Assembly (NCBI RefSeq): GCF_009498035.1
Contig: NZ_CP034550.1
Span: forward strand, 4,588,001-4,652,000
Length of the DNA stretch: 64,000 bases
Source of the DNA: Saccharothrix syringae
GTDB lineage: Bacteria > Actinomycetota > Actinomycetes > Mycobacteriales > Pseudonocardiaceae
Reading direction: 5' to 3'
Below are positions 38,087-63,140 of the stretch, piece after piece. The first letter of the stretch is position 1; each line of letters opens with the position of its first letter. A program made the translations under genes and the position numbers. Under the pieces are notes generated by a model that worked only from the letters and a program-made list of their open reading frames with translations, had not been told where the DNA came from and did no database searches.

Positions 38087-39780
38087 CAGACGACGTCGAC
38101 GAACACCGGGTTCGCGTAGAACCACAGGTCCGACCACGGGTCCGCGTCACCGACGACGTCCATCACCGGGCCGCCGTCGGAGGTGAGCCGGTTGCCGTCC
38201 GAACCGCGCAGCCGCAGGTAGAAAGCGGTGTCGACGTTGCGGAAGGTGTGCGTGAACCTGACCGTGCCGCGCGCGGTGCGGGACACCTCGAAGGTCTTGA
38301 CGACCCCGGTGCCGGGCGCGGCCAGCGCGTCGCGGTCGGTCGCCGGGCCGGTGACCGGTCCCGCGATCAGGTCCACCTTGGCCAGGCGCGGCACCGCGCC
38401 GGAGAAGTTGGCGCCCCGCGCCAGGTCCACCTCGATCGCGACCTCGACGCTGTCCCCGCGCCGCACGAACGTGCGACCGCCGATGGTGACTCCCCGGTTG
38501 TCGCCCTCGCCCAGCGACCGCACCCGCAGGTTCAGGCCGTCGATGAGCCGGCCGTGCACGGCGATCACCCGACCGCCCTGCATACCGCGCATGATGTCCA
38601 CGTAGGACCGCGAGTCGGCCCCCACCAGCGTGGAGCTGTAGAAGCCGGGCCAGTAGTCGCCGTAGACCTGCGGCTTGCCGGTGTCCACGGGCGCGCCGCG
38701 GCTGCCGGTGGCGTTGTGGTCGCCGCTGCCCTGCACGTGCGTGTCGAGGTGCACCTGGTGCGAGTCCGAAGTGGCCGTCACCCACCACGGCCTGCCCTCG
38801 GCGAGCAGCGAGTCCCACAGCCCGCCTACCTTGGCGGTCATCCAGTCGAACCCGCCGTAGGTGCGGTAGGGGTTCTCGGTGGCGGTGGGCGCGTAGCCGG
38901 GGAAGCTGTCCTGGTTGGGCGAACCGTCGTAGTACCCGCGCGCGGTACCGCGCCCGCCCGCCGCGGTCGGGATGCCCGCGGCCTGGTGGCCGGGCGCGCC
39001 CTCCATGCCCACGGCCACCCCCGGCGCGGCGTCGCGCCAGTTGCGGATCTCGTGGGGGCTGTCCACCCCGCGCCGCGCCGGGTGGTTGGCGAACATCAGC
39101 GCGATCTCGGTGCGGCCGGACAGCACCTGCGCCTCCAGGTAGCGCAGCGCCGCCAACGCGTACGGCTCGCCGTCGGCCGAGGTGGCGCGGGCGATCAGGC
39201 CCCGGCCGCCCTGGGCCGCCGGGGTGGACAGCACGCCGCCGTCGTAGGCCGCCTCGAACGCCCGCAGGATGTCCACCGTGGACTTGCCGGGCGGCAGGAA
39301 CACGGTCGCGTGCTCGGCACCCGGGATGTTCCACTCCAGGCCCTGGTAGACGAGCACGTCGCGGTACCGGCTCCGGGCGCGCTCGATGTCCGGGGTGACC
39401 TGGTCGATGGAGAACTTCTGGTGCGCGACACCGCCGTGGTCGGTGATGACGACCCAGTCCAGGCCGTACTGGCGGGCCTTGGCGACCTGCTGGGCCACCT
39501 CGTACTGGGCGTCGGGGGAGTACTGGGTGTGGATGTGGTGGTCGCCCGCGTACCAGCGGTTGCGCCCGCTCCACGGGTTCGTCGGCCGCGCCGGCCCGCC
39601 GTCGTGGGCGTGGGCCGGGACCGCGCCGAGCGTCGTGGCCACCCCGGCCGCGCCCAGGCCCGCCAGGAACCTGCGCCGCGCCACCGACAGCGGGCGGTCG
39701 TCCTCGGCGTCGCGCCAGCCGTCCCCCACCTCCTCGTGGTGGTGCTCGTGGCTGTGGTCGTGGTGGTGGTGGTGCGACAT
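38086..39780 (-). CDS. Tat-exported PHP-domain phosphoesterase with His-rich N-terminus
   Basis: A 564-residue protein. The first 17 residues hold 11 His (MSHHHHHDHSHEHHHEE), followed by a twin-arginine signal ARRRFLAGLGAAG and an AHA cleavage region. The PHP domain shows AGDHHIHTQYS (HxH), ITDHGG and a later SDSHQVHLD, all metal ligands. It probably hydrolyses a phosphate ester outside the cell. The His-rich start lies before the Tat signal and would be removed with it, so it may bind metal in the cytoplasm before export. Confidence 0.85.
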   Translation of the reverse strand: MSHHHHHDHSHEHHHEEVGDGWRDAEDDRPLSVARRRFLAGLGAAGVATTLGAVPAHAHDGGPARPTNPWSGRNRWYAGDHHIHTQYSPDAQYEVAQQVAKARQYGLDWVVITDHGGVAHQKFSIDQVTPDIERARSRYRDVLVYQGLEWNIPGAEHATVFLPPGKSTVDILRAFEAAYDGGVLSTPAAQGGRGLIARATSADGEPYALAALRYLEAQVLSGRTEIALMFANHPARRGVDSPHEIRNWRDAAPGVAVGMEGAPGHQAAGIPTAAGGRGTARGYYDGSPNQDSFPGYAPTATENPYRTYGGFDWMTAKVGGLWDSLLAEGRPWWVTATSDSHQVHLDTHVQGSGDHNATGSRGAPVDTGKPQVYGDYWPGFYSSTLVGADSRSYVDIMRGMQGGRVIAVHGRLIDGLNLRVRSLGEGDNRGVTIGGRTFVRRGDSVEVAIEVDLARGANFSGAVPRLAKVDLIAGPVTGPATDRDALAAPGTGVVKTFEVSRTARGTVRFTHTFRNVDTAFYLRLRGSDGNRLTSDGGPVMDVVGDADPWSDLWFYANPVFVDVV

Positions 39781-40170
39781 GGCGGCGGCTCCGATCCCGT
39801 CCCGACTGCGGCAGGCCGAAGTATCGTGAGTCCGCTATGCGTTGTGGCGGGGCCGGAGATCGAACAGGAGGTGAACACTTCGCCCGGCGGGTGCTCGGCC
39901 GAGCAGCCCGTTGGCCGGGTACGCCCCCGGCTCCAGCCGCGAGCCGCCGGCCGGGCTGGTGCGCTCGACCGGGCCGGCGGGGGAGCCGGTGGACCTCGAC
40001 ACCCGCGGTTCGCGCGGCCCCTCGTCGGTCGGCTCGTGGTCGGCCCCCGCCGTCCTCTTCGAGCAGCGGGCCCCCGCGCAACGCCCGCCCCGGCCTCGCC
40101 GCGGGTCCTGCTCGCGTGCTCCACCCGGCCCTCGGCCGCGCGGGCGGCCGGGCACGAGCACACTGAACCC
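39781..40170. other. ~390-bp region before kdpD
   Basis: Divergent promoters for the PHP gene and kdpD must lie here. A TTG-started frame (39911-40174) has high GC at third positions but no ribosome-binding site or recognisable protein. I see no operator. Confidence 0.5.
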
Positions 40171-42714
40171 GTGAACGGCAAGCGCAAGCGCGGGGAGCTG
40201 CGGATCTACCTGGGCGCGGCGCCCGGTGTGGGCAAGACCTTCGCCATGCTCGGCGAGGCCCACCGGCGCCGCGACCGGGGCACCGACGTCGTGGTCGGCC
40301 TGGTGGAGACCCACGGGCGGGACCGGACCGCCGCCCTGCTCGACGGCCTGGAGCAACTGCCCCGCCGGCCCGCCCACCACGGCGCCGAGCCGGCGGAACT
40401 CGACGTCGACGCCCTGCTGGCCCGGCGGCCCGAGGTCGCGGTGGTGGACGAGCTGGCGCACACCAACGCGCCCGGCTCCCGCAACGCCCAGCGCTGGCAG
40501 GACGTCGAGGAGCTGCTCGACGCGGGCATCGACGTGCTGTCCACGGTCAACGTCCAGCACCTGGCGTCGCTCAACGACGTGGTCGAGCGCATCACCGGCG
40601 TGGCCCAGCGGGAAACCGTGCCCGACGAGGTCGTGCGGCGCGCCGAGCAGCTGGAGCTGGTCGACATCACCCCCGAGGCGCTGCGCCGCCGCCTGGCCCA
40701 CGGCAACGTCTACGCCGCCCACAAGATCGACGCCGCCCTGGGCAACTACTTCCGCGTCGGCAACCTCACCGCCCTGCGCGAGCTGGCCCTGCTCTGGCTG
40801 GCCGACCAGGTCGACGTGGCCCTCCAGCGCTACCGCTCCGAGCAGCACATCACCGACACCTGGGAAACCCGCGAACGCGTCGTGGTGGCGATCAGCGGCG
40901 GCCCGGAGAGCGAGACCCTGATCCGCCGCGGCCGCCGGGTCGCCCTGCGCGCCGGCGCGGACCTGCTGGTCGTCCACGTCCTGCGCGGCGACGGCCTGGC
41001 CGGGGCGTCACCGCAGCTCGTGACCGGTTTCCGGCGCGTGGCCGAGGACCTGGGCGCGACCTTCCACACCGTGGTCGGCGACGACGTGCCCACCGCCCTG
41101 CTGGAGTTCGCCCGCGGCGTCAACGCCACCCAGCTCGTCCTGGGCACCTCCCGCCGCCCGCGCCTGACCAGGGTGTTCGCCGAGGGCATCGGCTCGGCCG
41201 TGACCCAGGCGTCCGGCCCCATCGACGTGCACATGGTCACCCACGAGGAGGCCCGCCGCGGCCCGCGGTGGCGGCCCGCGCACAACGCCCTGTCCCGGCA
41301 CCGCAGGCTGGCGGGCTGGCTGCTGGCCCTGCTGCTGCCGGGCGCGGTGACCGGCCTCGGCCTGGTCGGGCACGCCGACATGGGCTTCTCCACCGACCTG
41401 ATCGCCTTCTTGCTGGCCACGGTGCTGGTCGCCCTGGTCGGCGGCGTGGGCCCGTCCGTCGTCGCGGCCTTCCTCGGCGCCGGCCTGCTGAACTTCTTCC
41501 TCACCCCGCCCCGCTACAGCCTGGCCGTGGCCGGACCGGAGAACCTGATCGCCCTGGTCGCCATGCTCGTGGTGGCGGTGCTGGTCGCCGTGGTGGTGGA
41601 CCGGGCCGCCCGGCTCGCCGTCCAGGGCGCGCGGGCGCGCACCGAGGCCGCGCTGCTCGCCTCCTACGCCCGCACCGTGCTCACCAGCCCCCACCCCGTG
41701 GCGCGGCTGCTGGAGAAGGTCCGCGAGAACTTCGGCCTGGAGTCCGTGGCGCTGCTGGAGCGGCGCGAGGGGGAGTGGACGCGGGTGGCGTGCGTGGGGC
41801 CGCGGCCGTGCGACGAGCCGGACGACGCCGACGTGGACGTCCCGGTCACCGCGGACGTGCACCTGGCGCTGCGCGGGCGGGCACTGCCCGCGGGCGACCA
41901 GCGGGCCCTGGAGGCCGCCGCCGGCCAGGCGGTGCTGGCGCTGCGCCACCAGCGGATGGCCGCCGAGGCCGCCGAGGCCCAGCGCCGGGCCGAGACCACC
42001 GAGCTGCGCACCGCGCTGCTCTCGGCCGTCGGCCACGACCTGCGCACCCCGCTGACGTCCATCAAGGCCGCCGTGGGCAGCCTGCGCGACCCGGACCTCC
42101 GGCTGTCGGCCGGCGACACCGCGGAACTGCTGGAGGCCGTGGAGGTCTCGGTCGACCGCCTCACCGGCCTGATCGACAACCTGCTGGACTCCTCCCGGCT
42201 CGCCACCGGCGCCATCGCGCCGCACCTGCGGGCCGTGACCTACGACGAGGTGGTGGCACGAGCCCTGGCCGGCATCGACGAACGCGCCGCGGTGGCCGTG
42301 GACGTGGCCGAGCACCTGCCCCCGGTGCTGGCCGACCTGGGCCTGCTGGAGCGCGTGGTGGCCAACGTGGTCGACAACGCCCTCCGCCACGGCAGGCCGA
42401 CCCCGCGCCGGGCGGCCGGCGGCACCACCGCGGACGAACCGGAGGTGGCGATCCGGGCCAGCGCCTACGGCGACCGGGTCGAGCTGCGCGTGGTCGACCA
42501 CGGCCAGGGCCTGCCCAAGCACGCCAACGAGACCGCGTTCGCCCCCTTCCAGCGCCTGGGCGACCGCGACGCCACCCCCGGCGTCGGCCTGGGCCTGAGC
42601 GTGGCCAAGGGCTTCATGGAGGCCATGGGCGGCACCATCGCCGCCGAGGACACCCCCGGCGGCGGCCTGACCGTGGTCCTCTCCCTGCCGGTGGCCCGGC
42701 TGGTGGTCGCATGA
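40171..42714 (+). CDS. kdpD: Osmosensitive K+ channel histidine kinase KdpD
   Basis: An 847-residue protein. The N-terminal KdpD domain has RIYLGAAPGVGKTFAML (P-loop GAAPGVGKT, residues ~15-23). A USP-like domain follows (VVVAISGGPESETL), then four membrane helices of the DUF4118 block (~375-460), GAF, HisKA (AVGHDLRTPLTSIK) and ATPase (NVVDNALRHG, DHGQGLP). It senses K+ limitation and controls the Kdp K+-ATPase in other bacteria. GTG 40171; coupled to kdpE. The kdpFABC structural genes are not in this window. Confidence 0.96.
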   Translation: MNGKRKRGELRIYLGAAPGVGKTFAMLGEAHRRRDRGTDVVVGLVETHGRDRTAALLDGLEQLPRRPAHHGAEPAELDVDALLARRPEVAVVDELAHTNAPGSRNAQRWQDVEELLDAGIDVLSTVNVQHLASLNDVVERITGVAQRETVPDEVVRRAEQLELVDITPEALRRRLAHGNVYAAHKIDAALGNYFRVGNLTALRELALLWLADQVDVALQRYRSEQHITDTWETRERVVVAISGGPESETLIRRGRRVALRAGADLLVVHVLRGDGLAGASPQLVTGFRRVAEDLGATFHTVVGDDVPTALLEFARGVNATQLVLGTSRRPRLTRVFAEGIGSAVTQASGPIDVHMVTHEEARRGPRWRPAHNALSRHRRLAGWLLALLLPGAVTGLGLVGHADMGFSTDLIAFLLATVLVALVGGVGPSVVAAFLGAGLLNFFLTPPRYSLAVAGPENLIALVAMLVVAVLVAVVVDRAARLAVQGARARTEAALLASYARTVLTSPHPVARLLEKVRENFGLESVALLERREGEWTRVACVGPRPCDEPDDADVDVPVTADVHLALRGRALPAGDQRALEAAAGQAVLALRHQRMAAEAAEAQRRAETTELRTALLSAVGHDLRTPLTSIKAAVGSLRDPDLRLSAGDTAELLEAVEVSVDRLTGLIDNLLDSSRLATGAIAPHLRAVTYDEVVARALAGIDERAAVAVDVAEHLPPVLADLGLLERVVANVVDNALRHGRPTPRRAAGGTTADEPEVAIRASAYGDRVELRVVDHGQGLPKHANETAFAPFQRLGDRDATPGVGLGLSVAKGFMEAMGGTIAAEDTPGGGLTVVLSLPVARLVVA

Positions 42715-56004: not shown

Positions 56005-56694
56005 ATGGAGTCCCCCGAGCCGCCCTGGCGCGCCGTGCCCGCCCGTCCCGCGGTCAAGCCGCGGCTCTCGCGCGAGCTGATCGTGCGGACCGGCCTGGAC
56101 GTGCTGCTGGCCGAGGGCCTGGACGCGGTGAGCATGCGGCGCGTGGCCCAGGCGCTGGGCACCGGCCCGGCCTCGCTGTACGCCCACGTCGCCACCAAGG
56201 ACGAACTGGTCGAGCTGATGCTCGACCGCGTCCTGGAGGACGTCCCGCTGCCGGCACCGGACCCGCGCCGCTGGCGCGACCAGGTCAAGGACCTGCTGCG
56301 CGGCCAGGTCCGCGCGATGGCGGCGCACCCCGGCATCGCCCGGGTGGCCTGGCAGGTGGCCGTGCCGGTCGGCCCCAACGCCCTGCGCCACGGCGAGGCG
56401 CTGCTCAGCCTGCTGCGCGCGGGCGGCCTGCCGCTGCGCGAAGCCGCGTACGCGTGCGACGCGCTCTCGTTGTACACCAAGGCTTTCGCCTACGAGAGCA
56501 GCACGTGGGCCTCGGGCGCGGTCGACCACGCCGACGTCGCCGCCCGCGGCAGGCAGATCGTCGAGTACATGGACTCGATGCCGCCCGGCGCGTTCGCCAA
56601 CATGTCCCGCATCGGCGACCTGTTCACCGCCGAGACCGCGACCGAGCGCTTCGAGTTCGGCCTGGACATGCTCCTGAACGGCCTGGACCGCTGA
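56005..56694 (+). CDS. TetR-family regulator (TetR_C-like)
   Basis: A 229-residue protein. HTH: GLDAVSMRRVAQALGTGPASLYAHVATKDELV (seen as two pieces: MRRVAQALGTGPASLYAHV and ATKDELVELM). The C-terminal ligand domain is of the TetR_C type, which binds small drugs. ATG 56005. It represses the SRPBCC gene and itself through the three operators, by position. Confidence 0.92.
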   Translation: MESPEPPWRAVPARPAVKPRLSRELIVRTGLDVLLAEGLDAVSMRRVAQALGTGPASLYAHVATKDELVELMLDRVLEDVPLPAPDPRRWRDQVKDLLRGQVRAMAAHPGIARVAWQVAVPVGPNALRHGEALLSLLRAGGLPLREAAYACDALSLYTKAFAYESSTWASGAVDHADVAARGRQIVEYMDSMPPGAFANMSRIGDLFTAETATERFEFGLDMLLNGLDR

Positions 56695-56745: not shown

Positions 56746-57171
56746 TCACCGCCGCGACGCGACCACCACCGCGGCCGTGACCAGCACCAGGTTCTTCACC
56801 ACGAACTCACCCGGCACCGTCAGCAGCAGCGGGTTGCCCCCCTGGAAGGCGACGCCCGGCTGCACCACCAGCACCAGGAACGTGCCCAGCAGGTGCAGCG
56901 CCACCAGCCCCGCCACCACGCGCGCCCCCACGCCCGCGATCAGCGCCAGCCCCGCCAGCACCTCGAACACCCCCACCGCCGGCACGAACCACCGCTCCGG
57001 CAGGAACGGCACCGTGTCCGCCACCAGCCGCCACACCGGCGTGGCCCCGGTGATCTTCAACGCCCCGAACCACACGAACACCACGCCCAGCGCGATCCGC
57101 AGCCACACCGCGCCCCGGTCGCGCACCCGGCGGGCCGGCGCCTCGGGCACCTCCAGCAGGTCCTGGCTCAT
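56746..57171 (-). CDS. DoxX-like small membrane protein
   Basis: A 141-residue protein with four hydrophobic helices: LRIALGVVFVWFGALKI, FEVLAGLALIAGVGARV, LVALHLLGTFLVLVV and FVVKNLVLVTAAVVV. Family members include subunits linked to quinone or thiosulfate metabolism. ATG 57171 overlaps the 540-aa protein gene stop (ATGA). It is the last gene of the DAHP synthase-chorismatase operon, so it may carry electrons or anchor a complex. Confidence 0.85.
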   Translation of the reverse strand: MSQDLLEVPEAPARRVRDRGAVWLRIALGVVFVWFGALKITGATPVWRLVADTVPFLPERWFVPAVGVFEVLAGLALIAGVGARVVAGLVALHLLGTFLVLVVQPGVAFQGGNPLLLTVPGEFVVKNLVLVTAAVVVASRR

Positions 57172-58790
57172 CCCCGCTCCCGCCCGCCCGCGGCCGCCAG
57201 GGTCGTCCCCACCGACCGCAGCACCTCGTCGGTGCGCGCCACCTGCCCGGCCACCGCCTCCAGCGCCCGCCCGAGCGCCGGCCGCACGACCGCCGCCCAG
57301 TCCACCCCCGCCACCCGCTCGCGGGCCTGCTCGGTGGGTTCCGGGAACTCCGCCGCCACCGCGTGCACCACCGCGCCCAGCACCGCGTCGAGCACCAGCT
57401 CGGGCAGCAGCGACGACACCAGGTTCGGCAGGTGCCCCGGCTGCTCGTCCCCGGCGCGCGGCAGCCACGGGTCCAGGCTCGGCCGCAGCTCCTCCCACAG
57501 CCGCGCGTCCACCGCCCCGACGCCGAACCGGCCGGCCCACTGCAACGCGTCGGCCCGCGTCGCGGTCGCCGCCAGCACTTCTCGCACCTCGGCCCCGATC
57601 CGCAGCAGCTCCGGCAGGTCCGGCGCGCCCAGCGAACCCGGCCGCAGGTCCATCGACACCCGGTGGTGCCAGCGCGCCGCCCACACCGCCCGCCACCACA
57701 TGTCCTCCTGGGTCGCCGGGCGGGCCAGCCACACCGCGATGTTGCGGTAGTAGGTCTTGATCTCCTCGAACGCCGCCAGCCCCGCCGCCGACGCGGCGAA
57801 CCCGACGCTCTTGACCGGGTCCTGCGGCACGGTCGGGTCGCCCACCAGGTTGACGTTGAAGAAGTGGTGCCACGTGGCGTCCACCGCCACCCGGCCCACC
57901 CCCGCCCGGTGCCCGTCGTAGGCGCCGACCGCGCCGGACGTCCGCGCGTTGAGCCTGCCCTTGCGCGGGTCCAGCTCCGCCGGCCGCGCCGCGATCGTCG
58001 ACCACGCCACCACCTCCGGCGCCAGGCCGCCCGGGTACTCGGCGGTGTCGTAGCCGTCGAAGGTGAACGTCCGGCCCAGGTCGTCGGGCACGTAGCACTC
58101 GCCCTCGTGCGGGTGGTCGGGCAGCACCCGGATCGGCCCGCGCGGCCCGCACAGCAGCGGGTGCGGGTGGGCCTGGTGCGCCCACCTCGGCGAGTCCGAC
58201 GTGGCGTACATGCGCGGCGTGACCACCTGCGGCACGTCGTCGGACTGGTCGTTGAGCTGGAACAGCGGGTCGTGGCCCTCCGACAGGGTGTCGCGCCGGT
58301 CCGGCCCGTCGATCGACGGCGCCACCGGCTCGCCGTTCGGGCCCGGGTCCGGCCAGTGCCACTTGCGCATGCTGCGCACCCGCGGCACGCCGCCGCACAT
58401 CGACACGCCCAGGTCCTCGTGGTCGCCGGTGGCGAACACGCCGCCACCGCCGTCCATGAACTCCGCCACCGCCCGCAGCTCGGTCTCCTCCAGCGGCGGG
58501 CGGCCGCCGCGCGCCACGGCGAACATCCAGATCTGGTCGTAGGCCGACAGGTCGTGCCGGTCGAAGCGGAACGCCGGCAGGTCGGCGCTCAGCGCGGGCA
58601 GGTTGCGCTCGCGGTGCGCCTTGGTCACCTCGACCCGCGCCCACGGGAGGGCCGGGGCCTCCAGCACGTCCACCACCGTGGCCAGGCCGAAGTCGGCCCG
58701 GTCGAAGCTCGCCTCGCCGTCGGTCACCATGAGCACCCGGATGGTCCGGGGCGGGGCGAGGACGGACGTGGTCGCGCGGTTGTCGTTCAC
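57168..58790 (-). CDS. 540-aa protein of unknown function with ThuA-like N-terminal fold
   Basis: Not recognised as any characterised enzyme. The N-terminal ~270 residues look like an alpha/beta sandwich of the class I glutamine amidotransferase/ThuA type: VLMVTDGEASFD, DQIWMFAVARGG, FMDGGGGVFATGDHEDLG, and later conserved DTLSEGHDPLF and HHFFNVNLVGDP. The second half is helical without motifs. GTG 58790 overlaps the chorismatase stop (GTGA), and its TGA overlaps the DoxX start. The tight coupling suggests that it acts on the chorismatase product or shares its pathway. Confidence 0.85.
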   Translation of the reverse strand: MNDNRATTSVLAPPRTIRVLMVTDGEASFDRADFGLATVVDVLEAPALPWARVEVTKAHRERNLPALSADLPAFRFDRHDLSAYDQIWMFAVARGGRPPLEETELRAVAEFMDGGGGVFATGDHEDLGVSMCGGVPRVRSMRKWHWPDPGPNGEPVAPSIDGPDRRDTLSEGHDPLFQLNDQSDDVPQVVTPRMYATSDSPRWAHQAHPHPLLCGPRGPIRVLPDHPHEGECYVPDDLGRTFTFDGYDTAEYPGGLAPEVVAWSTIAARPAELDPRKGRLNARTSGAVGAYDGHRAGVGRVAVDATWHHFFNVNLVGDPTVPQDPVKSVGFAASAAGLAAFEEIKTYYRNIAVWLARPATQEDMWWRAVWAARWHHRVSMDLRPGSLGAPDLPELLRIGAEVREVLAATATRADALQWAGRFGVGAVDARLWEELRPSLDPWLPRAGDEQPGHLPNLVSSLLPELVLDAVLGAVVHAVAAEFPEPTEQARERVAGVDWAAVVRPALGRALEAVAGQVARTDEVLRSVGTTLAAAGGRERG

Positions 58791-59770
58791 GATGCGATCC
58801 CTTCGATCTCCACCAACAGGTCCGGCCGGCAGACGTCCACCGCGAACACGGCGAACTCGGCCCGGCGGGAGAACTCCTCGCGGCACAGCCGCGTCACGGT
58901 CGGCACGTCCTCGGGGCGCTTGACGTAGACCTTGACCTGGCGCAGGTCGCGCAGCACCCACCCGCCCGGCAGCCCGTGCCGGGCCAGGTTGTCCCGGCCG
59001 ACCAGCGCGGCCAGGTTCGCCAGCGTCACCTGGCACTGCCGCACCACGTCACCCGGGCACACCGTGGCGTCGTCGAGGATGCTCGCGGTGCCCGACACGT
59101 GGAGCACGCCCTCCAGCCACGTGGCGCGGGCGAAGCTGGGCGACCGGGGCCCGTAGCGCCGCGGGTACTCGTGCGCGGGCACCTGCAACGGGTTCTCCAG
59201 GTGCACGACCCGGCCCGCGCGGTGCGCCACGAAGTAGAACGAGGCGCCGCCGCCCAGCGCGCCGATCCCGGTGGCCGCGGGCATCGGCCGCGGCGACTCC
59301 TCGAACGCCCGCGCCCGGCCCACGCAGAACTCGGCGTAGACCTCGGTGCCGCGCCCGTCGCGGTCGGTGATGCCCTCCAGCGCGTTCCACATCCGGAACA
59401 GGTGCGGGTACCCCAGCCGGTCGACCAGCTCGAACGCGGCCAGGTACGCCTCCCGCGCGGCCTCGCCGCACCCCGCCGACGGCCCGATGTGCCCGGCGGC
59501 GAACAGGACCTCGCCGTCGTGCGCGTAGTGCAGCCCCCGGTGCTCGCCGGTGCGCACCGGCCCGGAGGCCGCCCACACCTCGACCACCTCCGGCCCGCCC
59601 GGCCGCACCATGTGCAGCGGCAGCACCGGGCAGCCGTGCTCCCAGCCGACCGGGCCGGCCCCGGTGGTGTAGCGGACGGCGCCCAGCACGCCGTCGCCGG
59701 CCAGCCGGTCGAAGTCCTCAGCGGTCCGCAACGAGCACCGCGACGAGGTGATCCCACCCGTGCGCAACAT
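58787..59770 (-). CDS. Chorismatase (FkbO/Hyg5-like)
   Basis: A 327-residue protein of the RidA-like chorismatase fold. Family segments are GCPVLPLHMV, LFRMWNALEGI, YAEFCVGRARAF, GASFYFVAHR, LHVSGTASIL and the C-terminal CRPDLLVEIEG. The Cys precedes the conserved Glu by 7 residues, matching (as I recall) the Cys327/Glu334 pair of Hyg5-type enzymes that make 3-hydroxybenzoate. FkbO-type enzymes lack that Cys and hydrolyse chorismate to dihydroxy-cyclohexadiene carboxylate. ATG 59770 has GAGGAGG upstream and follows the DAHP synthase stop by 10 bp. Confidence 0.93.
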   Translation of the reverse strand: MLRTGGITSSRCSLRTAEDFDRLAGDGVLGAVRYTTGAGPVGWEHGCPVLPLHMVRPGGPEVVEVWAASGPVRTGEHRGLHYAHDGEVLFAAGHIGPSAGCGEAAREAYLAAFELVDRLGYPHLFRMWNALEGITDRDGRGTEVYAEFCVGRARAFEESPRPMPAATGIGALGGGASFYFVAHRAGRVVHLENPLQVPAHEYPRRYGPRSPSFARATWLEGVLHVSGTASILDDATVCPGDVVRQCQVTLANLAALVGRDNLARHGLPGGWVLRDLRQVKVYVKRPEDVPTVTRLCREEFSRRAEFAVFAVDVCRPDLLVEIEGIAS

Positions 59771-59780
59771 GTCTGCCTCC

Positions 59781-60947
59781 TCAGAAGTCCGCGGCGTGCC
59801 ACGCCGCGACCACGGCGAGCGCCTGCCAGGGGTTGAGCCGGGGGTCGCACAGGGTCGTGCGCGGCCCCGAGCGGGTCGCCGAGCCGTTCCACCGGCACTC
59901 GCCCACCTGCTCCGGCGAGGTCTCCAGGTGCAGGCCGCCCGCCACCGCGCCGGCCGACCGCACGGCCGCCCGGAAGTCCACGACCTCCCGCGCCACCGCG
60001 TCGACGAACCGCGTCTTGTGCCCGTCGGCGTCGACGACGGTGTTGCCGTGCAACGGGTCGCACAGCCAGATCACCGGGTGGCCCGCCGCCCGCACCGCGG
60101 CCACCAGCGGCGGCAGCAGCGCCGACACGCGCTCCGCGCCCAGCCGGGCGATCAGCGCCAGCCGACCCGGCACCCGGTCGGGGTCCAGGCGCTCGCACAA
60201 CGCCACCAGCTCGTCCGGCCGCATGCCCGGCCCGACCTTGCACGCCACCGGGTTGGCCACCGAGGCGAGCAGCTCGACGTGCGCGCCGCCGAGGTCGCGG
60301 GTGCGGTCCCCGATCCACGGCCAGTGCGTGGAGGCCAGGAACACCCGGCCCCGCTCGTCGCGGCGCACCAGCGGCAGCTCGTAGTCCAGCACCAGCGCCT
60401 CGTGGCTGGTCCACGTCCACGGGCCGCCGCCGCGCAGGAACTCCGTCGCCGCCCGCGCCGCGTGGTAGCCCGCGACCAGGCGCGCCGGGTCGGCCCGCCG
60501 GGCCCGCGCGTCGGCCTGCGGCGCGTTGACCAGGTCGCCCCGGTACACCGGCAGCTCGACGCCGTCGACCACCTCCGTGGGCCGCGACCGCGGCTTGGCG
60601 AACTGGCCCGCGATCCGACCCACCCGCGCCACCGGCCGTCCCCGGCCCAGGGCGCGCGCCAACCGGTCCAGCAGCGCGGCCTTGCGCGCCAGGTGGTGCG
60701 GCGTGCACTCGGCGAACGGCTCGGCGCAGTCACCGGCCTGCAGCACCAGCCGCCCGCCCGCCGCCACCTCGGCCAGCGCCGAGCGCAACCCGTCCACCTC
60801 GTCGGCCGTCACCAGCCCCGGCAGCGCCGCCAGCCGCTCCCGGAACCGCCGGGCCCGGTGCCCCGGCCACGGCGGCTGCTGGGCGGCGGGCCCCACGGGC
60901 GCGGACCACACCGGCCCGGAACCGCGCGCAATGATCTCGATGGACAT
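59781..60947 (-). CDS. Type II (plant-like) DAHP synthase
   Basis: A 388-residue class II 3-deoxy-D-arabino-heptulosonate 7-phosphate synthase. Motifs seen: VLQAGDCAEPF, GRIAGQFAKPRS, VNAPQADARARR, WTSHEALVLDYE, SVANPVACKVGPGM, WLCDPLHGNT and GGLHLETSPEQVGEC. It is shorter than the ~460-aa primary-metabolism form of mycobacteria and lacks its long N-terminal regulatory region, as in pathway-dedicated copies such as PhzC. It starts the shikimate pathway from PEP and E4P. ATG 60947. First gene of the operon. Confidence 0.95.
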   Translation of the reverse strand: MSIEIIARGSGPVWSAPVGPAAQQPPWPGHRARRFRERLAALPGLVTADEVDGLRSALAEVAAGGRLVLQAGDCAEPFAECTPHHLARKAALLDRLARALGRGRPVARVGRIAGQFAKPRSRPTEVVDGVELPVYRGDLVNAPQADARARRADPARLVAGYHAARAATEFLRGGGPWTWTSHEALVLDYELPLVRRDERGRVFLASTHWPWIGDRTRDLGGAHVELLASVANPVACKVGPGMRPDELVALCERLDPDRVPGRLALIARLGAERVSALLPPLVAAVRAAGHPVIWLCDPLHGNTVVDADGHKTRFVDAVAREVVDFRAAVRSAGAVAGGLHLETSPEQVGECRWNGSATRSGPRTTLCDPRLNPWQALAVVAAWHAADF

Positions 60948-61091
60948 CCCCCGGTCGCCTTCCCCTCGCACGTTCTGCACTCGCGTTCGATTTCGACGGT
61001 CATGTTTCCGATCGGCGGGGGTGTTTTTCGTCTGCCCGGGGTCTGATCCGCGGTGTCCTCCTCCTCCCGCGTGTTCCCTCGATCGAGGTAA

Positions 61092-61126
61092 GACCAGGGT
61101 CCGACGGTCAAGATCGGACCCTGGTC
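61092..61126. promoter_or_regulatory. Perfect 13-bp inverted repeat between DAHP synthase and kinase genes
   Basis: GACCAGGGTCCGA and its exact complement TCGGACCCTGGTC flank 9 nt. It lies 145 bp upstream of the DAHP synthase ATG and 183 bp upstream of the kinase ATG. It is likely an operator; it could be bound by the NarL-type regulator encoded at 62439. Confidence 0.75.
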
Positions 61127-61308: not shown

Positions 61309-62442
61309 ATGGACGAGCGGCGGCGGGTGCCCCGGGCACGCGTGGTCGACCTGGCCGTGACCGCGTCGGCGGGCCTGGCGGACGCCTATGCGTTCGCCGC
61401 GCGGGCCGAACGCGGGGCGGAGGGCGCCGACGGCTGGCCGGCCGCCGCGCTCCTGCTGGTCGCCGCCCTGTCCCTGCTCGGGCGCCGCGGGCACCCGGTG
61501 GTCGTGTTCGCGCTCGTGTGGGCGTGCGGCGTGCTGGCCGCACCCCTGGGCGGCGGCGCCCTGCACCTCACCGCGATACCGTGCGCGGCGCTGTTCACCG
61601 TCGCCCTCACCCGCCCGGCCACGGTGTCGGCCGCCGCGCTGGCGGCCTGCTCGGTGCTGGCGCTGCCCCCGGTCCTGTTCCTCCACCTGCTGCTCTACGC
61701 GGGCGTCTGGACGGCCGGGCGGTGGACCCGGGTCACCAGGCGCCGCGCCGAGCGGGACGCGGTGCTGGCCGAGCGCGCCCGCATCGCCCGCGAACTGCAC
61801 GACATCGTGGCCCACGCGGTGACCGCGATGGTGCTGCAGGCGGCCGGTGCCCGCCGGGTCCTGGCGACCGACCCGGCCCGGGTGCGGCAGGCGCTCGGGC
61901 ACGTCGAGGAGACCGGCGAGCAGGCGATGGGGGAGCTGCGCCGGATGTTCGCCGCCCTGCGCCCCGACCGCGCCGCGGGCGAGGGCCCCGGCGCGGTCCC
62001 CGACCGCCCGCAACCGGGCCTGGCGGACCTGGACCACCTGGTGCACGCGGTCGCGGCGGCGGGCGTCCGCGTGCACACCAGGGTGGAGGGCCAACCGCGG
62101 CACCTGGCCGCCAGCGTCGACCTCGCCGCCTACCGGGTGGTGCAGGAGGCCCTGACCGACGCGACCAGGCACGCCGGACCGGGCTCGACCGCCGAGGTGC
62201 GGCTCCGCTGGGGCGAGGCGGACCTGACCGTGGAGGTCACCGACAACGGGCGCGCCAGGCGACCGGACCGGGGGCGCTCCGCCGACCACGACCTGTCCGG
62301 GCTGCACGAGCGGCTGGCGATCGTGGGCGGCCGGCTGGTGACCGACCTGCGGCGGGGCGACGGGTGCCGGCTCGCCGCCGTGCTGCCGGTGAGCACCCCG
62401 CGACCGGCCCCGGCACCCGTCACCGCGAAGGACCGCCGGTGA
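61309..62442 (+). CDS. NarL-type sensor histidine kinase (HisKA_3)
   Basis: A 377-residue protein. About five N-terminal membrane helices (~15-140), then ERARIARELHDIVAHAV (phospho-His), and an ATPase domain with VQEALTDATRHAG (N box) and VTDNGRA (G1). ATG 61309 has GGGGGAG upstream. Its stop overlaps the GTG of the next regulator. It is divergent from the DAHP synthase operon. Confidence 0.95.
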   Translation: MDERRRVPRARVVDLAVTASAGLADAYAFAARAERGAEGADGWPAAALLLVAALSLLGRRGHPVVVFALVWACGVLAAPLGGGALHLTAIPCAALFTVALTRPATVSAAALAACSVLALPPVLFLHLLLYAGVWTAGRWTRVTRRRAERDAVLAERARIARELHDIVAHAVTAMVLQAAGARRVLATDPARVRQALGHVEETGEQAMGELRRMFAALRPDRAAGEGPGAVPDRPQPGLADLDHLVHAVAAAGVRVHTRVEGQPRHLAASVDLAAYRVVQEALTDATRHAGPGSTAEVRLRWGEADLTVEVTDNGRARRPDRGRSADHDLSGLHERLAIVGGRLVTDLRRGDGCRLAAVLPVSTPRPAPAPVTAKDRR

Positions 62443-63140
62443 TCCGGGTGATGCTGGTGGACGACCAGCCCCTGGTGCGGGCCGGCCTGGTCATGCTGCT
62501 GGAGACCGAACCCGACATCGAGGTAGTCGCCGAGGCCGACGACGGCGCGGCCGCGGTGGCGCGCGCCGCCGAACTGCACCCCGACGTGGTGCTGATGGAC
62601 GTGCGCATGCCGGGCGTCGACGGCGTCGAGGCCACCCGCCGCATCATCGACGCCGACCCGGCCGGCGACGACCACGCCACCAAGATCATCATCCTGACCA
62701 CCTACCACGTGGACGAGGCCGTGTACGCGGCGCTGCGGGCCGGCGCGTCCGGCTTCCTGCTCAAGGACGCCGTGCCGCGCGAACTGGTCGACGCCGTGCG
62801 CACGGTCGCCTCCGGCGAGGCGTGGCTGGACCCGACCGTCGCGAAAGGACTGATCCGCGAGTTCGCCAACCGCCCGGGCGGGACCGCCCCCACCGCCACC
62901 GAACTGGGCCAGCTCACCACGCGGGAGCGCGAGGTGCTGGTGCTCGTCGCGCACGGCCTGTCGAACCCGGAGATCGCCGCGCACCTGGTCGTGGGGGAGG
63001 CGACGGTGAAGACGCACCTGGGCCGCATCCTGATGAAGCTGGGCCTGCGCGACCGGGCCCAGGCCATCGCCGCCGCCTACCACAGCGGCCTGGTCCAACC
63101 GGGCAGCCCGCCACCGCCACCGGCCGGTCGCCCCTCGTGA
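62439..63140 (+). CDS. NarL-family response regulator
   Basis: A 233-residue regulator. Receiver: VMLVDDQPLV, VVLMDVRMPGVDG (Asp) and FLLKDAV (Lys). LuxR-type HTH: LTTREREVLVLVAHGLS, TVKTHLGRILMKLG. GTG 62439 overlaps the kinase stop (GTGA), so they are cognate. Given divergence from the DAHP synthase operon, it may control it. Confidence 0.95.
   Translation: MIRVMLVDDQPLVRAGLVMLLETEPDIEVVAEADDGAAAVARAAELHPDVVLMDVRMPGVDGVEATRRIIDADPAGDDHATKIIILTTYHVDEAVYAALRAGASGFLLKDAVPRELVDAVRTVASGEAWLDPTVAKGLIREFANRPGGTAPTATELGQLTTREREVLVLVAHGLSNPEIAAHLVVGEATVKTHLGRILMKLGLRDRAQAIAAAYHSGLVQPGSPPPPPAGRPS

Follow-up and report, generated by a model that had tools for sequence, protein, structure and literature searches.

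A DAHP synthase-chorismatase operon of Saccharothrix syringae as a predicted 3-hydroxybenzoate module beside a two-component pair

What does an actinomycete make with a chorismatase that stands apart from any assembly line, and what are the genes around it for? The question is raised by a compact operon in the window analysed here, that is, the 64,000-nucleotide stretch of Saccharothrix syringae DNA comprising bases 4588001-4652000 of contig NZ_CP034550.1, in a genome assembled as a single contig of 10.93 Mb. The operon comprises four minus-strand genes, read from position 60947 to position 56746 in the order 3-deoxy-D-arabino-heptulosonate 7-phosphate (DAHP) synthase, chorismatase, a 540-residue protein that we call U540, and a DoxX-family membrane protein, with a 10 bp gap between the DAHP synthase and chorismatase genes and 4 bp overlaps at the chorismatase/U540 and U540/DoxX junctions. 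A first-pass annotation, made from the sequence alone, had described these four genes, with this spacing, as a possible new aromatic-acid pathway; the coordinates are confirmed, but by taking the operon as four genes only that annotation missed a divergent sensor kinase/response regulator pair (and a third regulatory gene present in relatives). The explanation that we favour overall, with more confidence than doubt, is that the locus is a self-contained 3-hydroxybenzoate module under its own two-component pair, with processing by U540 and DoxX included. That the operon is a 3-hydroxybenzoate module is, judging by its sequences, highly probable.

The operon enzymes and their predicted product

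The prediction of 3-hydroxybenzoate comes from the chorismatase. With 392.6 bits against a TIGR04444 cut-off of 325, the protein falls in the FkbO/Hyg5 family. It contains the segment CRPDLLVEIE, whose Cys, seven residues ahead of the Glu, the first-pass annotation had taken as fitting the Hyg5 type; this Cys aligns with Hyg5 C327 and the Glu with Hyg5 E334. According to the accessible part of PMC7170507, the CH-II, 3-hydroxybenzoate-forming type is marked by Gly, Gly and Cys at Nat-hyg5 positions 164, 231 and 318, which we mapped to Hyg5 positions 173, 240 and 327 assuming a constant numbering offset of 9; with this mapping the operon chorismatase has all three residues together with the catalytic Glu at 334. 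It thus shares with the 3-hydroxybenzoate synthases Hyg5 and Nat-hyg5 both the family model and residues G240, C327 and E334, whereas FkbO has Ala, Ala and Glu in the aligned PDB sequences; the first Gly (Hyg5 173) is also present in FkbO, and only positions 240 and 327 discriminate. The key Cys occurs in 117 and the second Gly in 119 of 120 listed chorismatase relatives (window protein included), so the CH-II trait is widespread in this region of the family. The residues support the expectation that the chorismatase, the only match to itself in the whole genome, would form 3-hydroxybenzoate and pyruvate from chorismate in the manner of Hyg5; the route from chorismate to 3-hydroxybenzoate is itself already known (PMC7170507, accessible part).

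The DAHP synthase is, as had been claimed, a short type II enzyme. It scores 390 bits against PF01474, its best solved relative is 6bmc, and its residues 173 to 179 span residues 175 to 235 of the 5uxm chain, that is, the stretch characteristic of the long form is absent. Short type IIB DAHP synthases, as the accessible text of PMC6435475 describes them, have no helices 2a/2b, do not respond to Trp, Tyr or Phe, and serve secondary metabolism; the operon enzyme likewise has no 2a/2b insertion and is nearest to PA1901 (6bmc), of the PhzC/PA1901 type. Its score against TIGR01358, the equivalog model of full-length class II DAHP synthases, is 385.3 bits and below the cut-off of 614.7 bits, as expected for a short form. 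These features support assignment to type IIB, for which escape from aromatic amino acid feedback would be expected. Other type II DAHP synthase matches lie at three further places in the genome, so the operon enzyme looks like a dedicated extra; it is paired with a chorismatase, whereas the PhzC/PA1901 type is found with phenazine genes.

The locus does not have the makeup of a polyketide synthase (PKS) or nonribosomal peptide synthetase (NRPS) cluster that contains a chorismatase. A whole-genome search (E up to 1e-20) found no ketosynthase or condensation domain within 200 kb of the operon, the closest of 79 ketosynthase matches lying about 201 kb and the closest of 66 condensation matches about 241 kb from it. 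The earlier remark that no PKS or NRPS is adjacent thus extends well beyond the window. In the accessible part of PMC7170507, CH-II examples feed PKS, PKS-NRPS or terpenoid pathways; the operon chorismatase differs from the Hyg5 examples given there not only in its distance from an assembly line but also in being adjoined by a two-component pair, U540 and DoxX. The features of the locus are collected in Table 1.

Table 1. Operon, divergent regulatory genes and intergenic block (window positions unless a locus is named; L and G numbers denote loci and genomes compared in this work)
Feature	Position	Strand	Details
Short (type IIB-like) DAHP synthase	59781..60947	-	388 aa, ATG start; PF01474, 6bmc
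FkbO/Hyg5-family chorismatase, Hyg5 (CH-II) type by active-site residues	58787..59770	-	327 aa, ATG start; TIGR04444
U540, undescribed family	57168..58790	-	540 aa, GTG start; predicted ThuA/class I amidotransferase-like domain and helical C-terminal half
DoxX-family membrane protein	56746..57171	-	141 aa; PF07681; four hydrophobic segments by hydropathy
Sensor histidine kinase, HisKA_3 type	61309..62442	+	PF07730, PF02518; divergent from operon
Response regulator, LuxR-type DNA-binding domain	62439..63140	+	PF00072, PF00196; 4 bp overlap with kinase
Promoter/operator-like block CGAGGTAA-N15-GTCAAG	61084..61112	+	conserved in divergent intergenic region
Protein X (relatives)	L009:4967-5527	-	same place in L007, L008, L011, L012, L013, L124, L125, L128, L141

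The U540 family and its predicted fold

U540 proved, as the first-pass annotation had found, impossible to assign by sequence: neither Pfam, searched at E up to 1, nor NCBIfam, at E up to 0.1, gave a match, and sequence searches of solved structures returned nothing credible. Its homologues, at least 1640 in number and distributed over several phyla, form a family for which neither Pfam nor NCBIfam has a model. The predicted structure (predicted local-distance difference test score, pLDDT, 91.1) comprises a ThuA/class I amidotransferase-like domain at about residues 13-366 and a helical C-terminal half, and the confident model resembles 1t0b, 4jqs, 2gk3 and the N-terminus of IFT52, with 7-16% identity among the 50 fold matches listed; the fold searches barely covered the helical half. 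The model backs the earlier suggestion of a ThuA/amidotransferase-like N-terminus as a matter of fold. It does not extend to membership of the ThuA family PF06283, to which U540 has no match; of 68 relatives searched at E up to 1, only 2 have one, with a best E of 0.017.

Eleven residues, D123, H124, D225, H226, H228, E229, C232, E251, Y252, H308 and H309, are invariant across 68 aligned U540 relatives. Compared with ThuA-like and class I amidotransferase-like proteins, U540 has an invariant His/Asp/Glu set of its own and the additional helical half. The nucleophile Cys of class I glutamine amidotransferases, which we take to stand right after the strand matching U540 residues 117-121, is missing: 68 of 68 members have Gly-Asp-His at this elbow position, judged from secondary structure rather than coordinates. 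Two other Cys residues are conserved, C132 in at least 90% and C232 in all of the aligned members, and U540 may carry out a Cys-based reaction of another kind. The large subunit of dimethylformamidase, with its iron site and ThuA-like domain III, indicates that a fold of this kind can carry a catalytic metal (PMC7686228, accessible part); it has no sequence match to U540 and is absent among the 50 fold matches listed, and the likeness is one of fold kind, not of ligands. Dimethylformamidase was considered as a functional model for U540 and set aside, there being no residue correspondence.

An alignment-based scan of genome contigs, using two peptide patterns and not exhaustive, yielded 44 U540 loci, and no partner gene is common to them. 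Clustering of the genes in the 44 loci gave, besides U540, only generic groups, namely response regulators in 16 loci and kinases in 9 (operon loci included), the remaining clusters being confined to near relatives, for example three Rhizobacter loci. In a Pfam tally of genes near U540 (mostly the nearest on each side), the commonest family accounted for only 2 of 65 genes; the tally took 65 of 125 candidates, without the neighbours of L048 and L050, which nearly duplicate L047, and without L015, whose U540 had been missed by the crude gene finder. The operon gives this orphan family a chemical hypothesis and a handle on its function; if the hypothesis is true, an unnamed class of proteins would gain its first assignable reaction.

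The remaining operon protein is a member of the DoxX family, as had been proposed (PF07681, 36.8 bits, cut-off 23.6). A TetR-family regulator gene at 56005-56694 adjoins the DoxX gene and has no match in the operon loci of the relatives compared.

Distribution, history and regulation of the unit

The closest named relatives by the operon proteins are mostly Saccharothrix, and in nine full relatives the DAHP synthase is 70-78%, the chorismatase 65-77% and U540 76-81% identical to the window protein; recurrence of the gene order in other species at these identities indicates that the arrangement is not due to chance. A search of other genomes for U540 and the gene order, as the first-pass annotation had advised, finds DAHP synthase, chorismatase and U540 together in 9 of 25 genus genomes and in Actinophytocola oryzae, with DoxX missing in one; the unit thus persists in roughly one third of the searched genomes of the genus and occurs in a second genus as well. 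Some chorismatase is present in 15 of the 25 genus genomes, with present/absent counts of 12/0 for genomes having any U540 and 3/10 for genomes having none (Fisher p 1e-4, a weak value since the genomes are related); the genomes with a chorismatase but no U540 are G184, G232 and G247.

Outside the operon the two families are mostly found separately. Seven of the 44 U540 loci (six Saccharothrix and A. oryzae) have an adjacent chorismatase and DAHP synthase, and 37 have no chorismatase beside U540 (up to 8 kb on each side, less at contig ends). Among 38 U540 genomes searched whole, A. oryzae included, 29 have no FkbO/Hyg5-family gene at E 1e-10; of the nine that have a match, three score over the cut-off, one being A. 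oryzae. A DAHP synthase adjoins the chorismatase in 17 of 30 loci examined (65 places found; flanks of about 1.5 kb), of which five are this operon, and the other 12, from the same taxonomic family, show no U540 in the examined DNA. In the 297 genomes of that family, a chorismatase occurs in 49 and a U540 relative in 31, 16 of these being only weak partial matches. The first-pass annotation had raised the prospect that U540 might be a housekeeping protein not usually found beside the chorismatase: the family is indeed usually found elsewhere, yet with relatives in so few family genomes it is not housekeeping. Its suggestion of a new aromatic-acid pathway holds in part, as a regulated stand-alone variant with U540; DAHP synthase-chorismatase pairs are common, the 3-hydroxybenzoate step is already known, and what sets the locus apart is its own regulators and the absence of an assembly line within 200 kb. 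Our literature searches, with subscription journals mostly outside their coverage, returned nothing recognisable as this operon, and work on PelA and on brasilicardin gave no decisive pointer.

Trees built from parts of the sequences (55 rows for chorismatase, 58 for U540) place the operon-type chorismatases in one clade (14 rows, support 100/99) and the operon U540s in one clade (11 rows, support 100/99), each with A. oryzae outermost, on a longish branch in the chorismatase tree; the results indicate that the operon genes travel together. Sister to the operon U540s is a group that includes Actinokineospora iranica (G299), in whose genome no chorismatase was found, and Actinophytocola xinjiangensis (G304/G066), whose chorismatase lies on another contig. 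The pattern, as reconstructed from these sequences, fits a single recruitment of U540 into a DAHP synthase-chorismatase pair, followed by joint inheritance. U540 is adjacent in 10 of 13 copies of the Saccharothrix-A. oryzae operon clade, and the other three have lost it: at the same site, L124 keeps 42 U540 residues and has no DoxX, L128 has neither, and L141 (G232; chorismatase P0138) has no DAHP synthase, U540 or DoxX and has Arg for the key Cys along with other active-site changes. The A. oryzae U540 (L013/L149) is in two pieces in two frames, owing to an assembly error or a real break. A distant U540 paralogue near groEL (L143, L144, L145) is intact in G255, G268 and G206, all of which are without operon U540, and is fragmentary (L146) in G127, which has operon U540. 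We did not rely on the paralogue as a replacement of the lost operon copy, G255 and G268 being sisters in the chorismatase tree and the paralogue standing on a long, distant branch.

Nine genus copies of the DAHP synthase, chorismatase and U540 genes have no internal stops, and the window copy is intact. Ratios of nonsynonymous to synonymous substitution rates (dN/dS), estimated by a crude method uncorrected for strong GC bias, are 0.32-0.41 for U540 (10 loci, one a 42-residue remnant), 0.41-0.60 for chorismatase (12 loci), 0.32-0.63 for DAHP synthase (11 loci) and 0.51-0.71 for DoxX, vs. 0.11-0.24 for the regulator and 0.11-0.16 and 0.26-0.31 for two flanking genes. The operon ratios are below 1 yet above those of the neighbours, from which we conclude that the operon is under purifying selection and evolves faster than its surroundings. 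In 7 of 9 full relatives, none of the other three operon genes has a ratio as low as that of U540 (of the remaining two relatives, one shows a tie).

Each of the 12 distinct relatives compared, A. oryzae among them, has the kinase and regulator next to the operon, and a regulator match (E at most 1e-90) is present in 12 of 12 genus genomes with an operon-type chorismatase vs. 0 of 13 others. In A. oryzae the kinase and regulator stand beside the operon, and no other tested flanking gene of the window has a match there (up to 8 kb). The intergenic block (61084-61112) can be recognised in the alignment of the window with 12 distinct relatives, with CTCAAG in place of GTCAAG in A. oryzae. On these sequence comparisons the divergent pair belongs to the unit, and regulation of the operon by the pair is likely. 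A perfect 13 bp inverted repeat with a 9 bp spacer at 61092-61126, in the divergent promoter region, was considered as an operator and rejected, since it is not conserved in relatives and only the surrounding block is.

Proposed mechanism and alternative explanations

In the mechanism that we propose, a signal would act through the kinase on the regulator, which would switch on the divergent operon promoter; the type IIB DAHP synthase would, by homology, push carbon into the shikimate pathway; and the Hyg5-type chorismatase would, by homology and active-site residues, convert chorismate to 3-hydroxybenzoate and pyruvate. U540, with its ThuA-like fold and recruited from a free-standing family, would then act on 3-hydroxybenzoate or a derivative, and DoxX would support U540 at the membrane, these last two being the weakest steps. 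That U540 acts on the chorismatase product or a derivative is a tentative proposal. The first-pass annotation had named U540 as a possible modifier of the acid, a role that it may have, although the 37 loci without a chorismatase speak against it. An ambitious version, in which the kinase, the regulator and, in relatives, a half-protease-like protein control 3-hydroxybenzoate and a new metal-dependent class of ThuA-fold enzyme converts it to a small product or signal, is improbable as a whole.

Several observations weigh against the explanation that we favour. In the sister genomes G255 and G268 the DAHP synthase and chorismatase persist, but DoxX is gone and only 0 and 42 residues of U540 remain; S. 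carnea (L012) is without DoxX. Constraint on the operon genes is weaker than on the regulator and the two flanking genes. The invariant U540 residues are the same in free-standing homologues, many from genomes in which no chorismatase was detected, which suggests that the U540 reaction need not involve 3-hydroxybenzoate; that U540 is a metal-using enzyme is predicted, metal use being inferred from the conserved His/Asp/Glu residues only. On the regulatory side, a whole-genome search allowing at most one mismatch finds 2 matches to the block (this one exact) vs. 2 for a reversed-pattern control, so there is no excess and no wider regulon is indicated. In G206 (L129, 6431-12373), a kinase (35%) and a regulator (51%) lie some 4 kb from a chorismatase of 53% identity that has no DAHP synthase; neighbours of this kind therefore also occur outside the unit. 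In G232, the kinase and regulator are retained in a locus from which DAHP synthase, U540, DoxX and the chorismatase key Cys are gone; the regulators have outlasted the synthesis genes and may have other targets.

A different reading of the locus, possible but distinctly less probable, is that the operon supplies a precursor to a distant PKS, NRPS or terpene pathway, with U540 and DoxX protective or passengers. The accessible part of PMC7170507 describes such an arrangement in Streptomyces conglobatus, where a chorismatase in one cluster feeds an assembly line elsewhere, and with 79 ketosynthase and 66 condensation matches takers are not lacking in this genome; the absence of U540 and DoxX from some relatives would also be accommodated. 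Against precursor supply stand the distance of about 201 kb to the nearest such domain and the low dN/dS of U540 relative to its operon partners, and retention of the unit with its own regulators in the different neighbourhood of A. oryzae fits a stand-alone trait better. That the locus is a decaying remnant of an old cluster, kept by chance, is very unlikely: erosion of 3 of 13 operon-clade copies and faster evolution than the neighbours would be expected of a remnant, but the nine genus copies without internal stops, the dN/dS values below 1 and the intact window copy would not.

A further reading is that 3-hydroxybenzoate, or a form of it modified by U540, is secreted and acts as a signal to which the neighbouring kinase responds. 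In Xanthomonas, 3-hydroxybenzoate has been reported as a diffusible factor, with XanB2. There too it is made from chorismate and is a possible signal; the chorismatase type and the regulators are others, and a shared role is conjecture by analogy. Across the genus the regulator occurs together with the operon, no assembly line lies within 200 kb, protein X is part of the regulatory operon in relatives, and in G232 the receiver side has survived beyond the synthesis side; all of this is consistent with a signal. However, a kinase next to a biosynthetic operon frequently responds to some other input, the window strain no longer has protein X, and two relatives have it in reduced form or have lost it; we regard a signal as unlikely. 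Least probable of all is that U540 is amidotransferase-like and aminates or diverts chorismate in parallel with the chorismatase: the expected nucleophile Cys is absent, with Gly-Asp-His in its place in 68 of 68 members, and U540 has no synthase half. The favoured explanation is thus still that of a self-contained 3-hydroxybenzoate module.

Protein X, the third regulatory gene of the relatives, is a lineage-specific protein of about 185 aa with 24 homologues that resembles one barrel of a trypsin-like protease; it precedes the kinase in the same regulatory operon, is missing in the window, and is reduced or missing in L010 and L126. On the DoxX side, the flanking genes scanned encode an M28 peptidase, a LigD polymerase, a GH18 chitinase-like protein, a DUF1540 protein and the TetR regulator, and none of these has a tie to aromatic metabolism. 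Elsewhere the window encodes an NB-ARC/TPR protein (463-2514) and, within a long open frame (38248-42714), a sensor kinase of the KdpD type, both ordinary for such genomes.

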